IMG/VR virus record: IMGVR_UViG_3300025910_000001
Span: 1-63,206 of that record
Strand: one strand, 5' to 3'
From: a virus
Length of the DNA stretch: 63,206 nt
This document shows positions 3,894-62,760 of this stretch, piece by piece. Each line of letters begins with the position of its first letter. Position 1 is the first letter of the stretch. Position numbers and translations under genes: made by a program. The notes below the pieces were generated by a model that had not been told where the DNA came from, did no database searches, and was given only the letters and a program-made list of their open reading frames with translations.

Positions 3894-5783
3894 GTGTCCT
3901 GCCTCTGGCAGTGGAGCGACGTCCGCCGTCAGTATCTGCGTGGCTACCACGCGATGGACCTCATCCACGAGGCGATCTACGAGGGTCGCCCCGTCGGACG
4001 TCGGCTCGGCAACGCGGCGATGGACTTCCTGCGCGCGCAGTCGAAGGCCTCGAGCTACCTGAACATCCTGCAGTCAATGATCGATACCGTCGTGTCGCGC
4101 GTCGGCAAGCGCCGGCCGATGCCGATCATCGGATGCGACGACGCCGAGTACTCGGAGAAGCTCTACGCGCGCCGCGCGTCCCGTGTGCTCCGCCGCAAGA
4201 TGGGTCAACCGTCGATCGAGCGCACGATGCCGATGGTGATGCGCGACGCGGTGGTCCGCGGCGACGGCTTCACCGAGCAGATCCGTGTCGGCAGCGACGT
4301 GCAGATCGAGCAGTTCCCGCGCTGCGAGCTCGTGTTCGATGACGGCGAACCGCGGATGAACGGCTGGCCGCGGACGCTCGCGCGCGTCCAGCTCGTGGAC
4401 CGCGATCAGCTGTGCTGCATGTACCCCGAGGCTGCCGAGCGCATCCGCGCCGTGGCACCTGCGAGCCGCGACGTGTGGTCGCCGTACGACTACGATGCGC
4501 CGATCGATCCCGACCAGGTTGAGGTCATCAAGGGTTGGCGGCTGCCGTCGTATCCGGGCGAGGAGGATGGCAGGCTCCTCATCGCGATCCGTGACGATGG
4601 TCCGCCGCTCAAGGAGCGCCCGTGGACGCGCCCGCGGTTCCCGCTCGCGCGCATCCAGTGGACACCGTCGTTGCGCGGCTTCCTCGGCATCGGTCTCGTG
4701 CAGCAGCTCGCCGGGTCACAGAACAAGGTCAACGAGCTCTGGGCCGATCACCAGGAGGCGCTGTACTGGGGCTCTGGCCTCAAGGTGTTCTCGCCGCGCG
4801 GCGCGAACGTCAACAAGTACCACCTGCGCGTCAGGCATCCGATCGTCGTCGAGCATGATGGCGCGGTCCCGCAGTACGTCGCGCCCAATCCTGCCTCAAC
4901 GCAGGCGATGGATTCGATCCGGTGGCTGATCCAGGAGATGTACGAGATCGGTGGCATCTCGCAGGCCAGCGCCGCGAGCAAGTCCACGCTGGGTCCCAAC
5001 GCTTCGGGCAAGGCGCTCGACACGATGGAGGACATCCAGAGCGACCGATTCAGCCAGTTCGAGACGCAATGTGCGATGGGCCGCGTCGACGTTGGCAAAA
5101 CCGTACTCGACGAGGCCAAAGACATGGTCACGGACTCCGAGGCGACGAACAAGAAGGATGAGCCGCTCTACCCCGACCTCGAGCTCGCGCCGTGGATCGA
5201 GGAGATCGACTGGCGAAAGTTCGATTTCGATGGTGGCAACTACCACCTGAACATCGAGCCGATCAACTTCCTCCCCGACTCGAGGGCCGGCAAGCTCGAC
5301 GCACTCGGCGACATGGCGAAGATCCCGGGGTTGCTCAACAACCCGCTGATCACGGCGTCGCTGTTCGAGGAGCCGGACATCGCGCGAGCCAACCGTCACC
5401 TGCTCGGCCCGCAACGGATGCTCGAGCGTGTGATGGAGATGCTCGGCGACGAGGACGTGTCGCTCATGGACTGCGTGCCGACGCCGCAGATGGACCCGGT
5501 GCTCGCGAAGACGATGGCGCTCGGCGAGTACGGCAACGCGTACTCCGAGGGCGCGAGCGACAGCCTGCTCGGACGCTACCGGTGGTTCTTGCGGTTGCTG
5601 GATGGTGAGCAACAGATGGCGGCGCCTGCCCCGGCGCCCGGGCCGATGCCTGATCCCAACGCCATGCCGCCGCCCGGTATGCCCGGCCCAATGGGGCCGC
5701 CCGGACCGCCTGGTTTCCCTGACCCGCTTGGTGGTGCGAGCGCTGCGCTGGCCGCCGGGATGTTGCCCCCTGGAGTGTCTTGA
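3894..5783 (+). CDS. Portal protein
   Basis: Dodecameric head-vertex channel for DNA packaging and exit. The 629-residue length, the position between terminase and scaffold/capsid genes, and the helical composition fit a podovirus-type portal. The C-terminus (about residues 580-629) is Pro/Gly-rich and collagen-like. The GTG at 3894 is preceded by GCGAGGA. However, the frame stays open upstream to a TGA at 3750-3752 and encodes plausible sequence (for example EPPEAPSDYTRERWWRQ). A CTG start at 3783 is therefore possible, and the true N-terminus is uncertain. Confidence 0.88.
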   Translation: MSCLWQWSDVRRQYLRGYHAMDLIHEAIYEGRPVGRRLGNAAMDFLRAQSKASSYLNILQSMIDTVVSRVGKRRPMPIIGCDDAEYSEKLYARRASRVLRRKMGQPSIERTMPMVMRDAVVRGDGFTEQIRVGSDVQIEQFPRCELVFDDGEPRMNGWPRTLARVQLVDRDQLCCMYPEAAERIRAVAPASRDVWSPYDYDAPIDPDQVEVIKGWRLPSYPGEEDGRLLIAIRDDGPPLKERPWTRPRFPLARIQWTPSLRGFLGIGLVQQLAGSQNKVNELWADHQEALYWGSGLKVFSPRGANVNKYHLRVRHPIVVEHDGAVPQYVAPNPASTQAMDSIRWLIQEMYEIGGISQASAASKSTLGPNASGKALDTMEDIQSDRFSQFETQCAMGRVDVGKTVLDEAKDMVTDSEATNKKDEPLYPDLELAPWIEEIDWRKFDFDGGNYHLNIEPINFLPDSRAGKLDALGDMAKIPGLLNNPLITASLFEEPDIARANRHLLGPQRMLERVMEMLGDEDVSLMDCVPTPQMDPVLAKTMALGEYGNAYSEGASDSLLGRYRWFLRLLDGEQQMAAPAPAPGPMPDPNAMPPPGMPGPMGPPGPPGFPDPLGGASAALAAGMLPPGVS

Positions 5784-12240: not shown

Positions 12241-12546
12241 CTACCGGGGCGCGCAATAGCCGCCACCGGCGGGCGAGCGAACGAAGACGACGCCTTCACA
12301 TCGTGGCGTGTCGTAGGCGCATTGCGGACGGCAGACGTCGTCAATGCACCACCCCTTGTCGTTGTGGCAGAGCGTGTTTGCCGGCGGGTCGGACTTGCAG
12401 GCCTCGCCGAACACGTCGCATACCGCGCTGGGCGGCGCGTCCGGCCGAGCGTCTATGCGAATGCCAGCATCGGGCTCGATGGTGCCCTCGTCGCTCGAAC
12501 AGCCGGCCAGGAAAACCATCGCCACAACCAGGAACGCCATCCTCAT
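12241..12546 (-). CDS. Small Cys-rich lipoprotein, antisense to the virion operon
   Basis: A 101-residue protein with a perfect lipoprotein signal: basic start, hydrophobic core and LAGC lipobox with C16 as the lipidated residue. The mature part starts with an Asp/Ala/Pro linker (DAGIRIDARPDAPP) of a type I associate with Polyangia lipoproteins, followed by a domain with seven further cysteines that could form disulfides. It is encoded opposite to the surrounding structural genes, next to a second lipoprotein. Candidate roles are lysogenic conversion, superinfection exclusion or, less likely here, an outer spanin. Confidence 0.75.
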   Translation of the reverse strand: MRMAFLVVAMVFLAGCSSDEGTIEPDAGIRIDARPDAPPSAVCDVFGEACKSDPPANTLCHNDKGWCIDDVCRPQCAYDTPRCEGVVFVRSPAGGGYCAPR

Positions 12547-33689: not shown

Positions 33690-33870
33690 CCTTCTGCGTG
33701 GGTTCTGTCGCCTTCAGCGTCCTGCTGGCGTACTCGAGGGCGTCCAGACAGGCGTCAGATTTAACTCCCTCCAGCCAATCACGTGCAGCCTCCCGGTGAA
33801 GGAGGCTGAGTGCGCTTCTCAGGTGCGCCACCTGGCCGCGTAGTTCGTCGTTGGTCATGAGGTTATCCAT
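33682..33870 (-). CDS. Small helical protein (62 aa)
   Basis: 62 residues, ending TEPTQKDG. The same C-terminal codons occur at the end of the upstream NADAR gene because the two gene boundaries share a 19-base repeat. Helical and charged. Unrecognised. Confidence 0.5.
   Translation of the reverse strand: MDNLMTNDELRGQVAHLRSALSLLHREAARDWLEGVKSDACLDALEYASRTLKATEPTQKDG
33684..33702. repeat. 19-base gene-boundary repeat, copy 1
   Basis: ATCCATCCTTCTGCGTGGG on the + strand, identical at 33865-33883. Read leftward it encodes the final codons PTQKDG of one gene, its stop, and the AGAAGGATGG ribosome site and start of the next. It looks like a duplicated gene junction, perhaps a point for modular gene exchange. 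Confidence 0.8.
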
Positions 33871-34450
33871 CCTTCTGCGTGGGGCGGGTGGCGGTCATCA
33901 GCTCGGCTCGGATCTCCATCCACAGTTTGCCGAGCTGGTTCTGTCCGTCGCGGTTCGGCCCCCAGCCCCAGAACGAGTCACGCCAGCTGTTCTCTACGAG
34001 CTCGCGGTCACCGGTGGCGAGCAGCTTCCGACGCACGTACTCGTGCTGTTCGACCTTAGCCCATAGGATTTGCCGCATGACGTCGACCTTGACGTCGTCC
34101 CAATCTGACCGACGATGCGCTCGGTACAGTTCGGCGATCTTGAATGCCTCGTGTGCGGATGGCGCGTCGATGATCAGTTTCTGCGTTGACGGGATGCCGC
34201 GGAACTTCTCGAAGTGGTAGGCAGCCTCACTGGTATCAAACCGACGCCCCCTCCATCGTAGCGTGAACGCCGAGAAGTTGCTGAGCGGATAGAAGTCCTG
34301 TTCGTAGAAGCAGACGCGCTCGTCGGTGTCTAGGCCGTGGCACTCGGTGGTGACAGCCGGTACACGACCATCCTCGCCACCCGCAACCGCCCGTCCGCCT
34401 TCGGGTTCTACAGCAGCGTCGAGAACAGCGAGGTCTCGTTCCTTGGTCAT
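33863..34450 (-). CDS. NADAR (YbiA-like) domain protein
   Basis: 195 residues from the ATG at 34450 (ATGA overlap). After a 40-residue variable N-terminus the NADAR hallmarks follow in order: FYEQDFYPLSNFSAF, WRGRRFDTSEAAYHFEKF, VMRQILWAKVEQHEYVRRKL, and ENSWRDSFWGWGPNRDGQN. The family binds or hydrolyses ADP-ribose/NAD-derived groups, including reversal of guanosine ADP-ribosylation and a role in riboflavin metabolism. In a phage early operon it may counter ADP-ribosylating or NAD-based defence. The specific substrate is inference. Confidence 0.85.
   Translation of the reverse strand: MTKERDLAVLDAAVEPEGGRAVAGGEDGRVPAVTTECHGLDTDERVCFYEQDFYPLSNFSAFTLRWRGRRFDTSEAAYHFEKFRGIPSTQKLIIDAPSAHEAFKIAELYRAHRRSDWDDVKVDVMRQILWAKVEQHEYVRRKLLATGDRELVENSWRDSFWGWGPNRDGQNQLGKLWMEIRAELMTATRPTQKDG
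33865..33883. repeat. 19-base gene-boundary repeat, copy 2
   Basis: Second exact copy of ATCCATCCTTCTGCGTGGG, 181 bases from the first (33684-33702). It lies at the end of the NADAR gene and at the start region of the 62-residue gene. The intervening sequence is not duplicated. Confidence 0.8.
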
Positions 34451-34967: not shown

Positions 34968-35318
34968 TCACCCACCAGCGTAACCGAGCGCTGCCGCTAC
35001 TCTGGACGATGCACTCTTCACGCTGCCGATCTGAGCGATCGCATCCAAGAGCTCTAGCTCAGGCCGGAACCACTCGCAGCGCACGCGTAGGTGCTTGAAG
35101 CGCTCCAGAAGCGTGGCCTCGACGTTCTTGGCGTCGTCGCTGGTGAACCACGCGATCAGCACGATCGGATACGGGCAGCCGCACTGGAAGCTGGCGATCC
35201 GCGCGTTCACGTCCTTCGTGTAGCCGATCTTGATGTAGCCGTTCTCGTCCTGGCACTGCGCGAAGTAGATGGCTGCCGTGTACTTGTCCGGGTGTCGCTG
35301 ACGTCGTCCGTGATTCAT
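34968..35318 (-). CDS. GIY-YIG-like (T5orf172/Mug113 type) protein
   Basis: 116 residues from the ATG at 35318, preceded by GGAAAA; an in-frame ATG at 35429 could extend it. The sequence AIYFAQCQDENGYIKIGYTK, then a conserved-looking Arg (VNARIASFQ), a Glu in the next helix (NVEATLLERFK) and EWFRPE match this branch of the GIY-YIG nuclease superfamily. Such proteins are common accessory genes of phages. The exact cutting activity is unknown. Confidence 0.75.
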   Translation of the reverse strand: MNHGRRQRHPDKYTAAIYFAQCQDENGYIKIGYTKDVNARIASFQCGCPYPIVLIAWFTSDDAKNVEATLLERFKHLRVRCEWFRPELELLDAIAQIGSVKSASSRVAAALGYAGG

Positions 35319-41049: not shown

Positions 41050-41246
41050 GCTGCCTCCGTAGGAGGTGTTAGCAGACGAATCTCGGCTGCCGACTGCAAT
41101 GCGCGGAACTCGGTTCGGCAGCCCGTTTCATGCGGATAGCCCGGATATCCGGTGTAGAAGATCGAAGCGCATGATCCGCACTTCAGATCGATCCCGAAGT
41201 TCTATGCGGCCTGCTCGCACTCTTCGTATGTCAGCCCGGCACTCAT
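41046..41246 (-). pseudogene. Zinc-ribbon gene interrupted by an in-frame amber codon
   Basis: The ATG at 41246 overlaps the stop of the Sak4-like gene, with GGAGG upstream. It reads MSAGLTYEECEQAA, then TAG at 41202-41204, then continues in the same frame as NFGIDLKCGSCASIFYTGYP through HETGC to a TGA at 41046-41048. That TGA forms an ATGA overlap with the next gene. The two parts together make a 66-codon gene with a CxxC..C zinc-ribbon pattern. The perfect fit at both ends shows the amber codon lies inside an otherwise intact gene. Other phage genes end in TAG, so the codon is not generally reassigned. Confidence 0.8.
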
Positions 41247-42289
41247 GCTGCCTCCGGTGCCGGTGGAGCAGCCCGCCTGGCCATCTCCTCTGGCTGCTTG
41301 CTGTCGATGTACTCGCGCTCCTCGGCGGCAGTCGCCGTTGGCTCGGGCTGCCGAGACTGCTCTAGCAGCTGCCGCTCGAGCCACGCCTTCCTCTCGTTGT
41401 ACGACTTGCGGACATCCTTGAGCAGCGCCGTCCCGTTGAACTCCTTTAGCTCCGGCATCAGGTTCGAGAGGGCCTCGAGAGACTCGGCGTTCCGGATCCT
41501 GGATAGGGTACCGGTGATCCTGGAGTCGACGGTCGGCTGCGATTCGACCGGCATGACCACCGGTCGCGCAACCGGAGCAACACCATCCATCAGCCACCCG
41601 TAGATCTTCCGCGCGACGTTCTGTCCGGGCTTCTCGAACAGATCGCCGATGTCGATCACGCCATCGAACCTCGTCTTGGTGATCCTGAGCGAGTGCGTCT
41701 GGTCCAGGTCTCCGACCAGATCGAACTCGTACTCCATCCCCTCGCGCTGGATCGCGGCGAGGCCGACCTTTTCGATCGTCGTCTTGCCGTTGACCGTGTT
41801 CTGCACGTACTCCATCTTGACGCGCAGCGTGGCGATGAGATGCCCGTGGCACCCCAGCATCGTCTCGACGAGCTCGTTGTGCTTCGGGGTAATCTCGCGC
41901 CAGGCCGTCCAGCTGTTACCGCCGCGAGCCGCCGCGTTGTCCTTCTGCTCGAGGGCGCCGCCCTTGCCGTACCACGCCTGGCTCAGGCTGTCGACGATGA
42001 TGATGTCGTAGCCAGCGCGCTCGGCCTCGTGGATCTTGTCGACGTACGCCAGCGGCGAATAGGACTCGAGCACGTCGGTATCGAAGTCGAACCTGCGGCC
42101 GTACTTCGATGCCGAGCCGTGTTCGGTGTCGATGAGACAGACGCGGCCATCACCCTGCTGAAGCTCGCGCATCATCGCCGCGATCGCTGTGGCGATGGAG
42201 AGTGCCGTGAACGTCTTGCCGTAACCGGCAAGGGAGCACAGCGCGAGCCGTAGCTTGCTCTGTTCCTTGACTGCTTTTTGGAAAGCCAT
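41243..42289 (-). CDS. RecA-fold ATPase (Sak4-like recombination protein)
   Basis: 348 residues. Walker A is SLAGYGKTFT (about 19-28) and Walker B is YDIIIVDSLSQAW (D100), with a RecA-like core of about 230 residues. The proline- and glutamine-containing C-terminal tail (from about 245) is variable. Proteins of this style replace Erf/Red-beta annealases in many phages and work with SSB on single strands. The SSB-like gene just upstream and the nuclease downstream support this role. Confidence 0.82.
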   Translation of the reverse strand: MAFQKAVKEQSKLRLALCSLAGYGKTFTALSIATAIAAMMRELQQGDGRVCLIDTEHGSASKYGRRFDFDTDVLESYSPLAYVDKIHEAERAGYDIIIVDSLSQAWYGKGGALEQKDNAAARGGNSWTAWREITPKHNELVETMLGCHGHLIATLRVKMEYVQNTVNGKTTIEKVGLAAIQREGMEYEFDLVGDLDQTHSLRITKTRFDGVIDIGDLFEKPGQNVARKIYGWLMDGVAPVARPVVMPVESQPTVDSRITGTLSRIRNAESLEALSNLMPELKEFNGTALLKDVRKSYNERKAWLERQLLEQSRQPEPTATAAEEREYIDSKQPEEMARRAAPPAPEAA

Positions 42290-42301: not shown

Positions 42302-42784
42302 TCAAAAAGGAATATTGTCGTCGGCGCCAGGAGCATTCGGATGTCTGCCGTTGCCCGACGGGGTTTCCTCTGCCTCGTTGAACCACGAGTCCACGTTTGC
42401 GGTGAGCTGGTTCGTGGCTGCGGCCAACGGCGGAGCCTCGTAGCCGATCGAGCCGACCGAGATCCACTCGCTGACCTTGCCAGTCTCCGGGTTGTCGTAG
42501 CGCGCGATGCGGACCTTGAACGGGACGACCTTAGCTGCCTTCATGACGTCGTCGACGAACGTTCCGATCGTCTTGCCCTGCCAGCCGAGCGCCATCAGGT
42601 CGCGCTTCGTGTAGCGGATCGACTCGGCCTTGAAGTTGCCGTTGTACGGCACCTGGATGCCAGTCTTCGGCCCCTCGCCGATTTCCATCGTCACACGGAC
42701 GGCAGGCTTGCCGCTCTTGGTGTCGGTGCCGTACTCCGCCTTGACTGCCTTGCCTCTGAAATCGCCTTCGAAGAGATTGCTCAT
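42302..42784 (-). CDS. ssb: Single-stranded DNA-binding protein
   Basis: 160 residues from the ATG at 42784. The N-terminal 110 residues have the strand pattern of an OB fold (FRGKAVKAEYG, AVRVTMEIGEG, VVPFKVRIARYDN). The tail is flexible and ends in ADDNIPF, closely matching the acidic tip by which SSBs recruit partners. The neighbouring RecA-fold ATPase fits. It binds exposed single strands in replication and recombination. Confidence 0.82.
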   Translation of the reverse strand: MSNLFEGDFRGKAVKAEYGTDTKSGKPAVRVTMEIGEGPKTGIQVPYNGNFKAESIRYTKRDLMALGWQGKTIGTFVDDVMKAAKVVPFKVRIARYDNPETGKVSEWISVGSIGYEAPPLAAATNQLTANVDSWFNEAEETPSGNGRHPNAPGADDNIPF

Positions 42785-42874: not shown

Positions 42875-43075
42875 TCAGCCCGTGCAGGTATTCAGGCAAG
42901 TGAATCGCGGGCAGGTCGTGCCTTGACCCTGGGTTCTGCAGCCCTGCGTGCAGGCGCCGGCCTCGGAGCAGATCTGATTGTCGCTATCCCCAAGACCGCC
43001 ATGCACGACTGTCAGGTCGGTCAAGGCTCTGATCGTCTCACTTGAGATCGTGAGTCGCCTGTTGGTTCGCTTCAC
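42875..43075 (-). CDS. RiPP-precursor-like peptide 1, Cys/Thr-rich core
   Basis: 66 residues. The leader ISSETIRALTDLTVVHGG has the [L/I]-x-x-[E/Q]-x-IR-x-[L/I] pattern and ends in a double glycine (26-27). This is the form of class I lanthipeptide-like precursors that I associate with Bacteroidota and Myxococcota. The 39-residue segment after GG has six cysteines (36, 42, 46, 55, 60, 64) and nine Ser/Thr. Cys plus Ser/Thr is the raw material for lanthionine rings. No modification enzyme or exporter is visible in the phage, so maturation would need the host. It shares MKRTN and 16 identical bases at its start with precursor 2. Confidence 0.72.
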   Translation of the reverse strand: MKRTNRRLTISSETIRALTDLTVVHGGLGDSDNQICSEAGACTQGCRTQGQGTTCPRFTCLNTCTG

Positions 43076-43233
43076 TGGACTTCACCACCCTTCACGGGTG
43101 GCGGCCAGCACGTCGACTTCTCTGGCTTGGTGTCGACATCGGTCTGCCCCCCGCCGACGACGAGATCGAGTCCCGTGATGACCCGGATCGTCTCGCGCGC
43201 GAGATTGATTCGTTTGTTGTTGGTTCGCTTCAT
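43072..43233 (-). CDS. RiPP-precursor-like peptide 2
   Basis: 53 residues with the leader NLARETIRVITGLDLVVGG ending at residue 28, plus a short core (25 residues) with one cysteine (C42), several Thr and Ser, and a Pro-rich part (STCWPPPVKGG). The leader aligns with those of its neighbours at the ETIR and VxGG positions. ATGA overlap with precursor 1. It is a likely duplicate that has diverged in its core, as expected for RiPP families. Confidence 0.68.
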   Translation of the reverse strand: MKRTNNKRINLARETIRVITGLDLVVGGGQTDVDTKPEKSTCWPPPVKGGEVQ

Positions 43234-43240
43234 GATGAGC

Positions 43241-43393
43241 TCAGCGCGGTGGCGTATCCGGCCAACACGGCTTGAACGAGTCCGGGATCGGGTTCGTCCA
43301 GGTGTCGATGACGACTCCGCCGACGACATCGCGGAGCTCCAGAGTCCGAAGATGACGAATCATCTGGCTATCCAGTTTCAGTTTTCTCCTCAC
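43241..43393 (-). CDS. RiPP-precursor-like peptide 3
   Basis: 50 residues from a GTG at 43393 with a perfect AGGAGG five bases before it. The leader LDSQMIRHLRTLELRDVVGG ends at residue 26. The core contains TWTNPIPDSFKPCW, with one cysteine and Pro/Trp. The core resembles the C-terminal part of precursor 2 in having Cys-Trp-Pro. GTGA overlap with the upstream membrane protein gene. Confidence 0.65.
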   Translation of the reverse strand: MRRKLKLDSQMIRHLRTLELRDVVGGVVIDTWTNPIPDSFKPCWPDTPPR

Positions 43394-43587
43394 ACTGTCC
43401 TCCTGGTTGATAGCCCCGCATCGACCGCAGAACAGGGGGACGGCGGAACACTGCCGGCGGACCACGGCCGATGCGGGAAATCGAGTAATCGCGCTCGGTG
43501 CTCGTGGAGCGGACCGATTGCGTAGCGGATGACGGCGATCGTCAGGGCGCCGCAGAGCCAGCCGGAGAGGAAGATGATGGTGGTCAT
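43390..43587 (-). CDS. Small membrane protein (65 aa), upstream of the RiPP-like trio
   Basis: The ATG at 43587 (ATGA overlap; another ATG lies nine bases upstream) gives an N-terminal hydrophobic segment (IIFLSGWLCGALTIAVIRYAIG), then a polar, Pro/Ser-rich tail with one more cysteine. Directly upstream of the peptide genes, it might be an immunity or export helper, but only position suggests it. Confidence 0.5.
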   Translation of the reverse strand: MTTIIFLSGWLCGALTIAVIRYAIGPLHEHRARLLDFPHRPWSAGSVPPSPCSAVDAGLSTRRTV

Positions 43588-43832
43588 GGCGACCATCCGG
43601 TGCGGATGAGGGCTTCGGCTTCGGCGTCACGTTCTCGGTCAGTCTGTCCGTACGAATCGCTAAGCGTCATCCACGCGTTCCATGCGAGTGAGATAGCGGT
43701 CTCGCTTCGTATGCCGAGGGCGCTGGCGGCCGATCCGTAGGACCACTCCATCGACTTCCAGCCACCGCTCGCCGCGATCGCGCAGATCAGCGCTGCCTCT
43801 TCGCGCACCTTCTTGCTGTATCGCTTCTTCAT
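43584..43832 (-). CDS. Hypothetical protein (82 aa)
   Basis: Basic start (KKRYSKKVREEAALICAIAAS), then an alanine/serine-rich helical domain (GSAASALGIRSETAISLAWNAW). Unrecognised. Coupled on both sides. A small nucleic-acid-binding role is possible from its basic start. Confidence 0.5.
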   Translation of the reverse strand: MKKRYSKKVREEAALICAIAASGGWKSMEWSYGSAASALGIRSETAISLAWNAWMTLSDSYGQTDRERDAEAEALIRTGWSP

Positions 43833-55429: not shown

Positions 55430-56259
55430 TGGCCCGCATGTCGATCGATGACAAGCTCACCCGCGACCCGCGGGCCGTACGACTTGGACGCATATACGGG
55501 TGGCGCCGGCAGGAGGCGATCGGCCGGCTGCTGGACGTCTTCGCTCTGACCTACGACCGCGAGCGCGACGTCATTCCTGGTGAAGACATCGACATCGCGG
55601 CCGAGCAAGACGGCTTCGCGGTGAGCATGGAGCTGGTCGGACTGGCCGAAAAAACGCCGAAGGGGTACCGCGTGAAGGGTGCCGCTGAGCGCATTCGGTA
55701 CCTTCAGGAGTGCCGTGACTCTGGCAGGGTAGGTGGTATCAAGAGTGGAGAATCACGAAGAGAAAGGTCGAAGGGTAACGCGAAGCGACCCTTCAAGGGT
55801 AATCGAAGCGACCCTTCCGAAGGGTCCGAAGGGTTAGGGAAGCCTCCTCCTCCTCCTCCTCCTCCTCCTCCTGTTCAAGAGAGAGAGAGCGCCTCCGGCG
55901 CTTCAGGCTCTGCTGTCCCGGATCCACCCAAGAGGAAGCGGACAGACCGCGGAGTCCAGATCCCAGAAGGATGGAGGCCTTCAACCTCATCCGCCAACCA
56001 GTCCACAGAGGCCGATGCCCGCAAGCGTGGAGTGAACCTGGTAACCGAGCTCGAGAGCCTGCACGACTGGGCCCGTAGTCACGGGATCACACGCAAAGAC
56101 TGGGATGCCCAGTGGCGCAACTGGATGCGGCGAGCCCGACCCTCGTTAGCTAGCGAAACCCGGAATGGAACGTCTAAGCAGACTCCGCTCCGCATCGTTG
56201 CCGAGTCCGACGAGCCAGACCTCAGCGTGTACGACGCGATTCCTAGGAGTGCGAAGTGA
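55429..56259 (+). CDS. Replication organiser / initiator-like protein
   Basis: 276 residues from the ATG at 55429. The N-terminal 90 residues resemble a winged-helix domain (RLGRIYGWRRQEAIGRLLD). A low-complexity linker follows with ten consecutive prolines encoded by ten CCT codons. The C-terminal domain has GVNLVTELESLHDWARSHG and DWDAQWRNWMRRA, the pattern seen in phage replication and helicase-loading proteins. It lies immediately before the DnaB genes. It contains a cluster of iteron-like repeats, as lambda O does. Confidence 0.7.
   Translation: MARMSIDDKLTRDPRAVRLGRIYGWRRQEAIGRLLDVFALTYDRERDVIPGEDIDIAAEQDGFAVSMELVGLAEKTPKGYRVKGAAERIRYLQECRDSGRVGGIKSGESRRERSKGNAKRPFKGNRSDPSEGSEGLGKPPPPPPPPPPVQERESASGASGSAVPDPPKRKRTDRGVQIPEGWRPSTSSANQSTEADARKRGVNLVTELESLHDWARSHGITRKDWDAQWRNWMRRARPSLASETRNGTSKQTPLRIVAESDEPDLSVYDAIPRSAK
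55770..55834. other. Iteron-like repeats, candidate replication origin
   Basis: AAGGGTAACGCGAAGCGACCCTTC at 55771-55794 is followed by a 23-base near-copy at 55795-55817 that lacks one base. The heptamer GAAGGGT (or its close form or complement ACCCTTC) occurs six times: 55770, 55788, 55794, 55811, 55819 and 55828. The array lies inside the replication-organiser gene, in the region encoding its linker, where lambdoid phages keep their origin. Confidence 0.6.
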
Positions 56260-62385: not shown

Positions 62386-62760
62386 GTGCCCCGCTACGAG
62401 CCGCTCTACGACCGACTCCTGGTGCGAGTCCTCGCGCCCAACACGCGCACGCGCGGTGGGCTGTTCATCCCGGACAGCGCGACCGACGGCACGCCGTATC
62501 TTCGAGCCGAGGTGATCGCCGTCGGACAGGGACGCATCACGACAAGCGGTCAGGTTGTTCCGCTGCGTGTCGCCGTCGATGACGTCGTGATATTCTTCCG
62601 CTCGCAGTCGAGTGGAGAGCAACTCGTTTTTCCGTCGGATGACGGCACCGAGCTGATGATCATCCGCGAGCCGAACGTCGCTGCAATCATCCGAGACCTC
62701 GACAAGGTCACCTCTATCGTCAGTCCGCACGACGGACAGAATCTGGTGCTGAGCTCATGA
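62386..62760 (+). CDS. groES: GroES-like co-chaperonin
   Basis: 124 residues from a GTG. YEPLYDRLLVRVLAPNTRT, then GGLFIPDSA, AEVIAVGQGRI and VPLRVAVDDVVIFFR follow the Cpn10 plan: N-terminal strand, mobile loop, GxVxAVGxG turn and the barrel strands. Cpn10 caps GroEL and may help fold the capsid, as T4 gp31 does. The C-terminal 25 residues extend beyond the usual length. No GroEL is encoded here, so it would work with the host's. Confidence 0.82.
   Translation: MPRYEPLYDRLLVRVLAPNTRTRGGLFIPDSATDGTPYLRAEVIAVGQGRITTSGQVVPLRVAVDDVVIFFRSQSSGEQLVFPSDDGTELMIIREPNVAAIIRDLDKVTSIVSPHDGQNLVLSS

Follow-up and report, generated by a model that had tools for sequence, protein, structure and literature searches.

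Putative class I lanthipeptide-type precursors without enzymes of their own in a temperate-type phage and its relatives

The DNA analysed here, referred to as the window, is from a soil phage, comprises positions 1 to 63,206 of the IMG/VR virus record IMGVR_UViG_3300025910_000001 and carries three short consecutive open reading frames (ORFs) on the minus strand at 42875-43393. Each encodes a small peptide with a leader ending in double glycine, as do precursors of modified peptides in bacteria. These genes raise the question of whether a phage could specify the precursors of such peptides and leave out the enzymes, and if so where the enzymes would come from and what the products would be for.

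The three genes and their surroundings

The first 100 or more bases of the window are seen again at its end, and it is therefore probably a complete genome. The phage is of the temperate type, and an integrase-like gene is present (PF00589, slightly below the cut-off). The three genes and their neighbours are as follows.

41243..42289, minus strand: AAA_24 ATPase, homologue of Mx8 p81 (PF13479, E 2e-21)
42302..42784, minus strand: DUF669-like gene, next downstream of the trio (PF05037, E 0.0069, below the cut-off)
42875..43075, minus strand: precursor P1, 66 aa, GTG start, 4-nt GTGA overlap with the P2 stop; leader 42995-43075, MKRTNRRLTISSETIRALTDLTVVHGG; core 42878-42994
43072..43233, minus strand: precursor P2, 53 aa, ATG start, beginning 7 nt after P3; leader 43150-43233, MKRTNNKRINLARETIRVITGLDLVVGG; core 43075-43149, GQTDVDTKPEKSTCWPPPVKGGEVQ
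43241..43393, minus strand: precursor P3, 50 aa, GTG start with AGGAGG upstream; leader 43316-43393, MRRKLKLDSQMIRHLRTLELRDVVGG; core 43244-43315, VVIDTWTNPIPDSFKPCWPDTPPR
43584..43832, minus strand: small gene upstream of the trio, from ORF calling, no family match

A preliminary description of this DNA had proposed three consecutive genes with double-glycine leaders and differing cores, and both the frames and the core compositions are as it gave them. The P1 core holds six Cys and nine Ser/Thr, and the P2 and P3 cores contain one Cys apiece inside a CWP segment; as there is a single Cys in each, P2 and P3 can form one ring at most. The layout of a class I LanA peptide, with a predicted GG cleavage site followed by a core containing Ser/Thr and Cys, is found in the window peptides, and the P1 and P2 leaders are 56% identical. 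A crude codon-model gene caller calls P2 and P3 and misses P1. The start context of P1 is weak, and its translation may be coupled to that of P2.

The trio adjoins recombination genes and lies on the same strand. By Pfam, one of its two flanking genes is unmatched and the other gives the weak DUF669 match; the latter probably encodes an ssDNA-binding protein that partners the AAA gene product, and both the DUF669-like and the AAA gene are context, outside the peptide system. A 190-base gap (43394-43583) separates the trio from the upstream gene and could contain its promoter, and no match to a sigma-70-type promoter is found upstream of the trio. The AAA_24 gene shows 69% DNA identity over 333 bases to Myxococcus phage Mx8 and 52% identity to a Myxococcales MAG, and may serve as a weak pointer to a host in the Myxococcota.

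Several other genes of the window are of interest in their own right. A NADAR-domain protein (33863-34450, minus strand; PF08719, E 2e-30, plus a weak PADLOC candidate match) belongs to a family that removes ADP-ribose from DNA, i.e., reverses DNA ADP-ribosylation, and is a possible counter-defence gene. A T5orf172/MUG113 protein (34968-35318, minus strand) has an Mx8 homologue with 39% identity over 80 aa, and a GroES-like co-chaperonin (62386-62760, plus strand; PF00166) has homologues in seven of the seven relatives available as whole contigs. A small lipoprotein-like gene (MRMAFLVVAMVFLAGCSS..., 12241-12546, minus strand) lies on the opposite strand within the structural region. The ORF at 55793-55927 (minus strand) is low-scoring and contains a Glu run, QEEEEEEEEEAS; it is of low complexity and doubtfully coding.

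Recurrence of the leader in other phages

Scans of the window peptides against NCBIfam, Pfam and PHROGs matched no family; a FeoC listing for P1 scored 13 bits against a cut-off of 21 and was set aside as noise. Searches of 50,697 phage records by tblastn with P1, P3 and a consensus leader gave nothing credible, and in IMG/VR neither a scan with a single protein nor two strict patterns had a match. Relatives were reached with a structural gene (3894-5783, by its position portal-like) as the query, which retrieved 16 related IMG/VR contigs. A profile of the three window leaders matches two of these, G293 at three places (best E 1.3e-6) and G297 at one, and reading of the relatives' sequence gave seven precursors, three in G293, three in G297 and one in G292. 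Among all IMG/VR contigs, 11 stretches match a degenerate DNA pattern written for the leader, with the spacing that most relatives have and with no demand on the core. Nine of them are short GG-leader ORFs with Cys-containing cores, one already known from G293 and eight in further contigs, several of which carry portal, RecT-like or exonuclease genes; the other two are one unrelated sequence seen twice.

The total is thus 18 precursors in 12 phage records, three in the window and 15 in 11 others, so that at least eleven other phages have such genes. Three of the 12 carry three copies each, recognisable ribosome sites precede many of the genes, and the Arg and double-Gly leader positions, for which the preliminary description had expected conservation, are kept in the related phages. 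A cross-validated profile built from 14 leaders, none of them from the window, places the trio at ranks 1 to 3 of the 1318 window ORFs (E 9.3e-6 for P2, 6.9e-5 for P3 and 1.2e-4 for P1), with E 0.11 for the best other ORF and at most 8.3 bits in a reversed-sequence control.

The location of the precursors varies: in the window they adjoin the recombination genes, in G292 the precursor lies among the packaging genes, in G297 they are 2 kb upstream of an AAA gene, and in G293 they are on both strands. The relative G298 has recombination genes in common with the window and lacks a precursor at that place. Because of this variation and of G298, the precursors resemble mobile cargo more than a central function of the phage, and since their positions differ between phages there is no conserved timing.

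Cys is present in all 18 phage cores with Ser/Thr before it. Together these cores contain 64 Cys in 575 residues (11.1%) and 19.8% Ser/Thr; for comparison, small window proteins have 2.1% Cys. Between phages, leader identity averages 43%, and the cores are roughly no more alike than shuffled ones. One close pair (L260 and L265; 93% DNA identity over 2.3 kb) gives a pN of 0.03 and a pS of 0.22 in the leader, and 0.13 and 0.12, respectively, in the core. Although the numbers are small, this pattern is what would be expected of a fixed recognition part joined to a free product part. A WP motif occurs in four phage cores (P2, P3, G293c and L254) and in none of 14 host cores; near Cys it takes the forms CWPPP, CWPDTPP, CGDWPTSP and CGPWPDPP in the P2, P3, L154 and L254 cores.

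The same leader beside LanB and LanC in bacterial genomes

A ten-row profile of phage leaders was searched against bacterial genomes of two phyla. The leader is present in 25 of the 195 genomes of the phylum that includes G002, a MAG titled Myxococcales; these leader-positive genomes are 9-14 Mb in size, and the phylum is most likely Myxococcota proper. The matches are mostly short ORFs, e.g., MKKPTKKLTLSKDTLRALNETQLKQVAGG followed by a Cys-rich core. The control phylum, that of G001 (also a MAG titled Myxococcales), has the leader in none of its 269 genomes and LanC in 17 of them; a search of it with NF038153 gave no match, and the controls of that search were likewise silent.

The leader is linked to LanB in the phylum where it occurs. 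Of the 33 leader places tabulated, 26 have a full-length LanB (Lant_dehydr_N) at a distance of no more than 10 kb, in 23 of the 25 genomes, and two of the remaining places adjoin LanC. Lant_dehydr_N is matched in 25/25 leader genomes as against 72/195 overall, for a hypergeometric probability of 7e-13 that is not corrected for kinship. At L236, L237 and L249, the neighbours of the precursors include, by Pfam, a LanC and a LanB with both the Lant_dehydr_N and the Lant_dehydr_C domain, and three of four loci chosen by LanB alone (L250, L252 and L253) contain a precursor with this leader. Alignment of phage and host leaders with hhalign gives a probability of 98% (E 1.5e-13), which argues for homology of the window-type leader to the leaders of LanB/LanC-adjacent precursors and bears out the earlier suggestion of a class I lanthipeptide-type leader as found in Myxococcota. 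A profile from LanB-linked bacterial leaders alone again ranks the trio 1 to 3 in the window, with E values of 0.0018 for P2, 0.093 and 0.57, and is weak for P1 and P3. The make-up of 14 LanB-linked host cores (11.3% Cys, 18.5% Ser/Thr) is the same as that of the phage cores.

A second form of host precursor has the same leader start and no GG (KKLSLKRETVRLLS ... TSPFCTEGGPKCEP); it is often found in tandem near LanB, at L238, L242, L246, L190, L193 and other host loci. A further arrangement is seen in the host genome G396, of Myxococcota type, where six precursors of one kind are spread over three places, with the nearest LanB 0.9-2.4 Mb away. These near-identical precursors (NGDSAGVIC...) are scattered along the chromosome (L266, L267 and L268), an arrangement that parallels, within class I, that of the prochlorosins. 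As G396 keeps precursors with no LanB as a neighbour, supply of the enzymes in trans is plausible for the phage precursors as well.

The preliminary description had proposed a comparison with models of lanthipeptide and TIGR04149-type precursors, and the outcome differs by model. NF038153, the NCBIfam model for the class I lanthipeptide leader L1a, has a cut-off of 22 bits, which is exceeded by four of six host precursors tested and, at 22.1 bits and thus by 0.1, by a peptide of the sister phage G297; seven other phage peptides match below the cut-off, and the window peptides do not match. The suggested link to TIGR04149, a family of GG precursors modified by radical-SAM enzymes with a cut-off of 25 bits, is not supported, as the window peptides are unmatched, host relatives score at most 22.9 bits and a G293 peptide scores 14.6.

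The statement that no modification enzyme is visible in the phage holds, as regards LanB and LanC, for all phage DNA searched. LanC has no match in the window, and tblastn with host proteins, two LanB and two LanC, has no match in the window or elsewhere in the phage sequence read, with both controls positive. The search covered seven relatives as whole contigs of 34-59 kb (G288, G291, G292, G293, G297, G298 and G300) and further contigs of 2-13 kb each, for which enzymes elsewhere are possible. Neither a LanB and LanC pair in one cluster with the window precursors nor a complete phage-borne cluster with modification enzymes was found in this DNA. Because a cut-off score against NF038153 and cluster enzymes are both lacking in the window, its peptides are, judged by their sequence, built like class I lanthipeptide precursors and are not filed members of the family.

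The leader, the GC content and the one Mx8-like gene together suggest that the host phylum is probably Myxococcota. The portal-like protein, or a prophage of this phage group, is absent from 189 Myxococcota genomes (the phylum of G002), and no named phage has a relative of the capsid, terminase, integrase, DUF2800 or portal-like genes. Bacterial loci around related AAA genes are without such peptides.

Possible function and comparison with known systems

The trio is quite probably accessory cargo of the phage, coding for class I lanthipeptide-type precursors that lack enzymes of their own and are modified by the LanB and LanC of the host. The leader, K/R-[LI]-x-[LI]-x-x-[ED]-T-[IV]-R-x-L ... 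GG, would mimic, or be inherited from, the Myxococcota L1a leader and so be recognised by the LanB dehydratase of the host. Host LanB and LanC would then act on the phage core, removing water from its Ser/Thr and joining these to Cys in thioether rings, and a GG-cleaving protease or exporter of the host would cut off the leader. We infer host identity, expression, recognition by LanB, modification and cleavage alike from the DNA and its comparisons. As all 18 cores keep dehydratable residues and Cys and otherwise change freely, a released product that acts on other cells or phages, by inhibiting competitors or as a population signal, can be suggested tentatively, at slightly less than an even chance. 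A broader view has about an even chance of being correct, namely that phages of probable Myxococcota hosts systematically carry enzyme-free precursors with fast-changing cores and use host LanB/LanC as shared infrastructure, so that phage-specified peptides for phage-phage or phage-host conflict would constitute a virus-borne library of peptides that are modified in trans.

An alternative role would be that of a counter-defence decoy, in which the phage peptides compete with an antiviral lanthipeptide of the host for LanB/LanC, the leader being what matters and the core a mere sink. Intracellular lanthipeptides that block phages have been reported in Streptomyces (PMC12360287), and the position of the trio on the strand of adjoining recombination genes, the NADAR-domain gene in the same phage and the conservation of leaders but not cores would all suit a decoy. 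A pure decoy would have no need of Cys and Ser/Thr, however, and these are held at the level of host cores in 18 of 18 cases; no report of anti-phage lanthipeptides in Myxococcota was found. The decoy is thus unlikely, although worth consideration, and an active product, whether weapon or signal, is preferred because the cores retain the residues on which the enzymes act. Unmodified peptides, too, can have GG leaders, and this fact together with the low Cys content of P2 and P3 would fit secreted or regulatory peptides that stay unmodified, similar to class II bacteriocins or arbitrium, with the leader used for C39 export alone. Such an explanation is improbable, as the leader matches the class I type adjacent to LanB/LanC rather than a generic GG leader, and no receptor gene is recognised by Pfam in the two genes flanking the trio.

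Two further explanations deny the genes any function in the phage. If host precursor genes had entered the phages through recombination or an imprecise excision and stayed there without serving any purpose, their location would be expected to vary, as it does, and phages such as G298 could lack a precursor next to the recombination genes. Passive remnants of this kind are still more improbable than unmodified peptides, given the constrained leader and changing core in the one close pair, the recurrence in 12 phages, the triple copies in three of them and the ribosome sites before many. Chance resemblance among short ORFs in GC-rich DNA would account for the lack of a library family for the window peptides, but is hardly credible in the face of the cross-validated profile matches, the low ceiling of the reversed control, the 18 cases in 12 phages and the Cys cores behind nine of 11 matches to a pattern that ignored the core.

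Standalone precursors encoded by phages and modified by host enzymes would, if true, be a cheap route to chemically complex molecules. Cluster-based mining would overlook them, as they have no enzyme nearby and score too low for the curated families, and they would place lanthipeptides directly in the contest between phages and bacteria in Myxococcota, where LanB clusters are common. Previously known links between modified peptides and phages consist of whole clusters on phages or host peptides directed against phage. A literature search, with most subscription papers outside it, turned up no account of phages with lanthipeptide precursors that stand alone, which suggests that standalone, multi-copy and diversifying precursors in several phages are new; priority is not thereby proven.

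Among known systems, the sublancin genes of SPbeta form a phage-carried cluster for a modified peptide. Complete biosynthetic clusters on phages are also known, as related in articles citing the original work (Dragos et al. 2021, cited in PMC10023795 and PMC12360287). In both cases phage genes specify a modified peptide, as here, but such clusters carry their own enzymes, whereas the present phages, several in number, have precursors alone. The anti-phage lanthipeptides of Actinomycetota, as summarised in a review (Shomar et al., reviewed in PMC12360287), likewise belong to the contest of phage and host, but are made by the host against the phage and not encoded by the phage. Arbitrium AimP of SPbeta-group phages (PMC12360287) is a small phage peptide processed by host factors; in contrast to the precursors proposed here it is not of lanthionine type and needs an AimR receptor gene, none of which is recognised by Pfam in the two genes beside the trio. 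The class I leader motif LxLxKx5L with GG was derived from genome mining in Bacteroidetes (PMC7268733) and agrees with the leaders described here, and class I L1a precursors (NF038153) resemble the window peptides in leader layout, GG end, Ser/Thr/Cys core and tandem paralogues. The window peptides differ from them in being phage-encoded with no LanB/LanC found in the phage, and in leaders that have diverged beyond the NF038153 listing, with the motif Lys often replaced by Arg or Ser. Prochlorosin precursor genes are scattered, with many served by one tolerant enzyme. The substrate tolerance of that enzyme, ProcM, is documented (PMC11667668). Prochlorosin systems are like the present one, and like host G396, in having precursors far from the enzyme with a conserved leader and diverse cores, and differ in relying on a class II enzyme in cyanobacteria and in having precursors that are chromosomal rather than viral.
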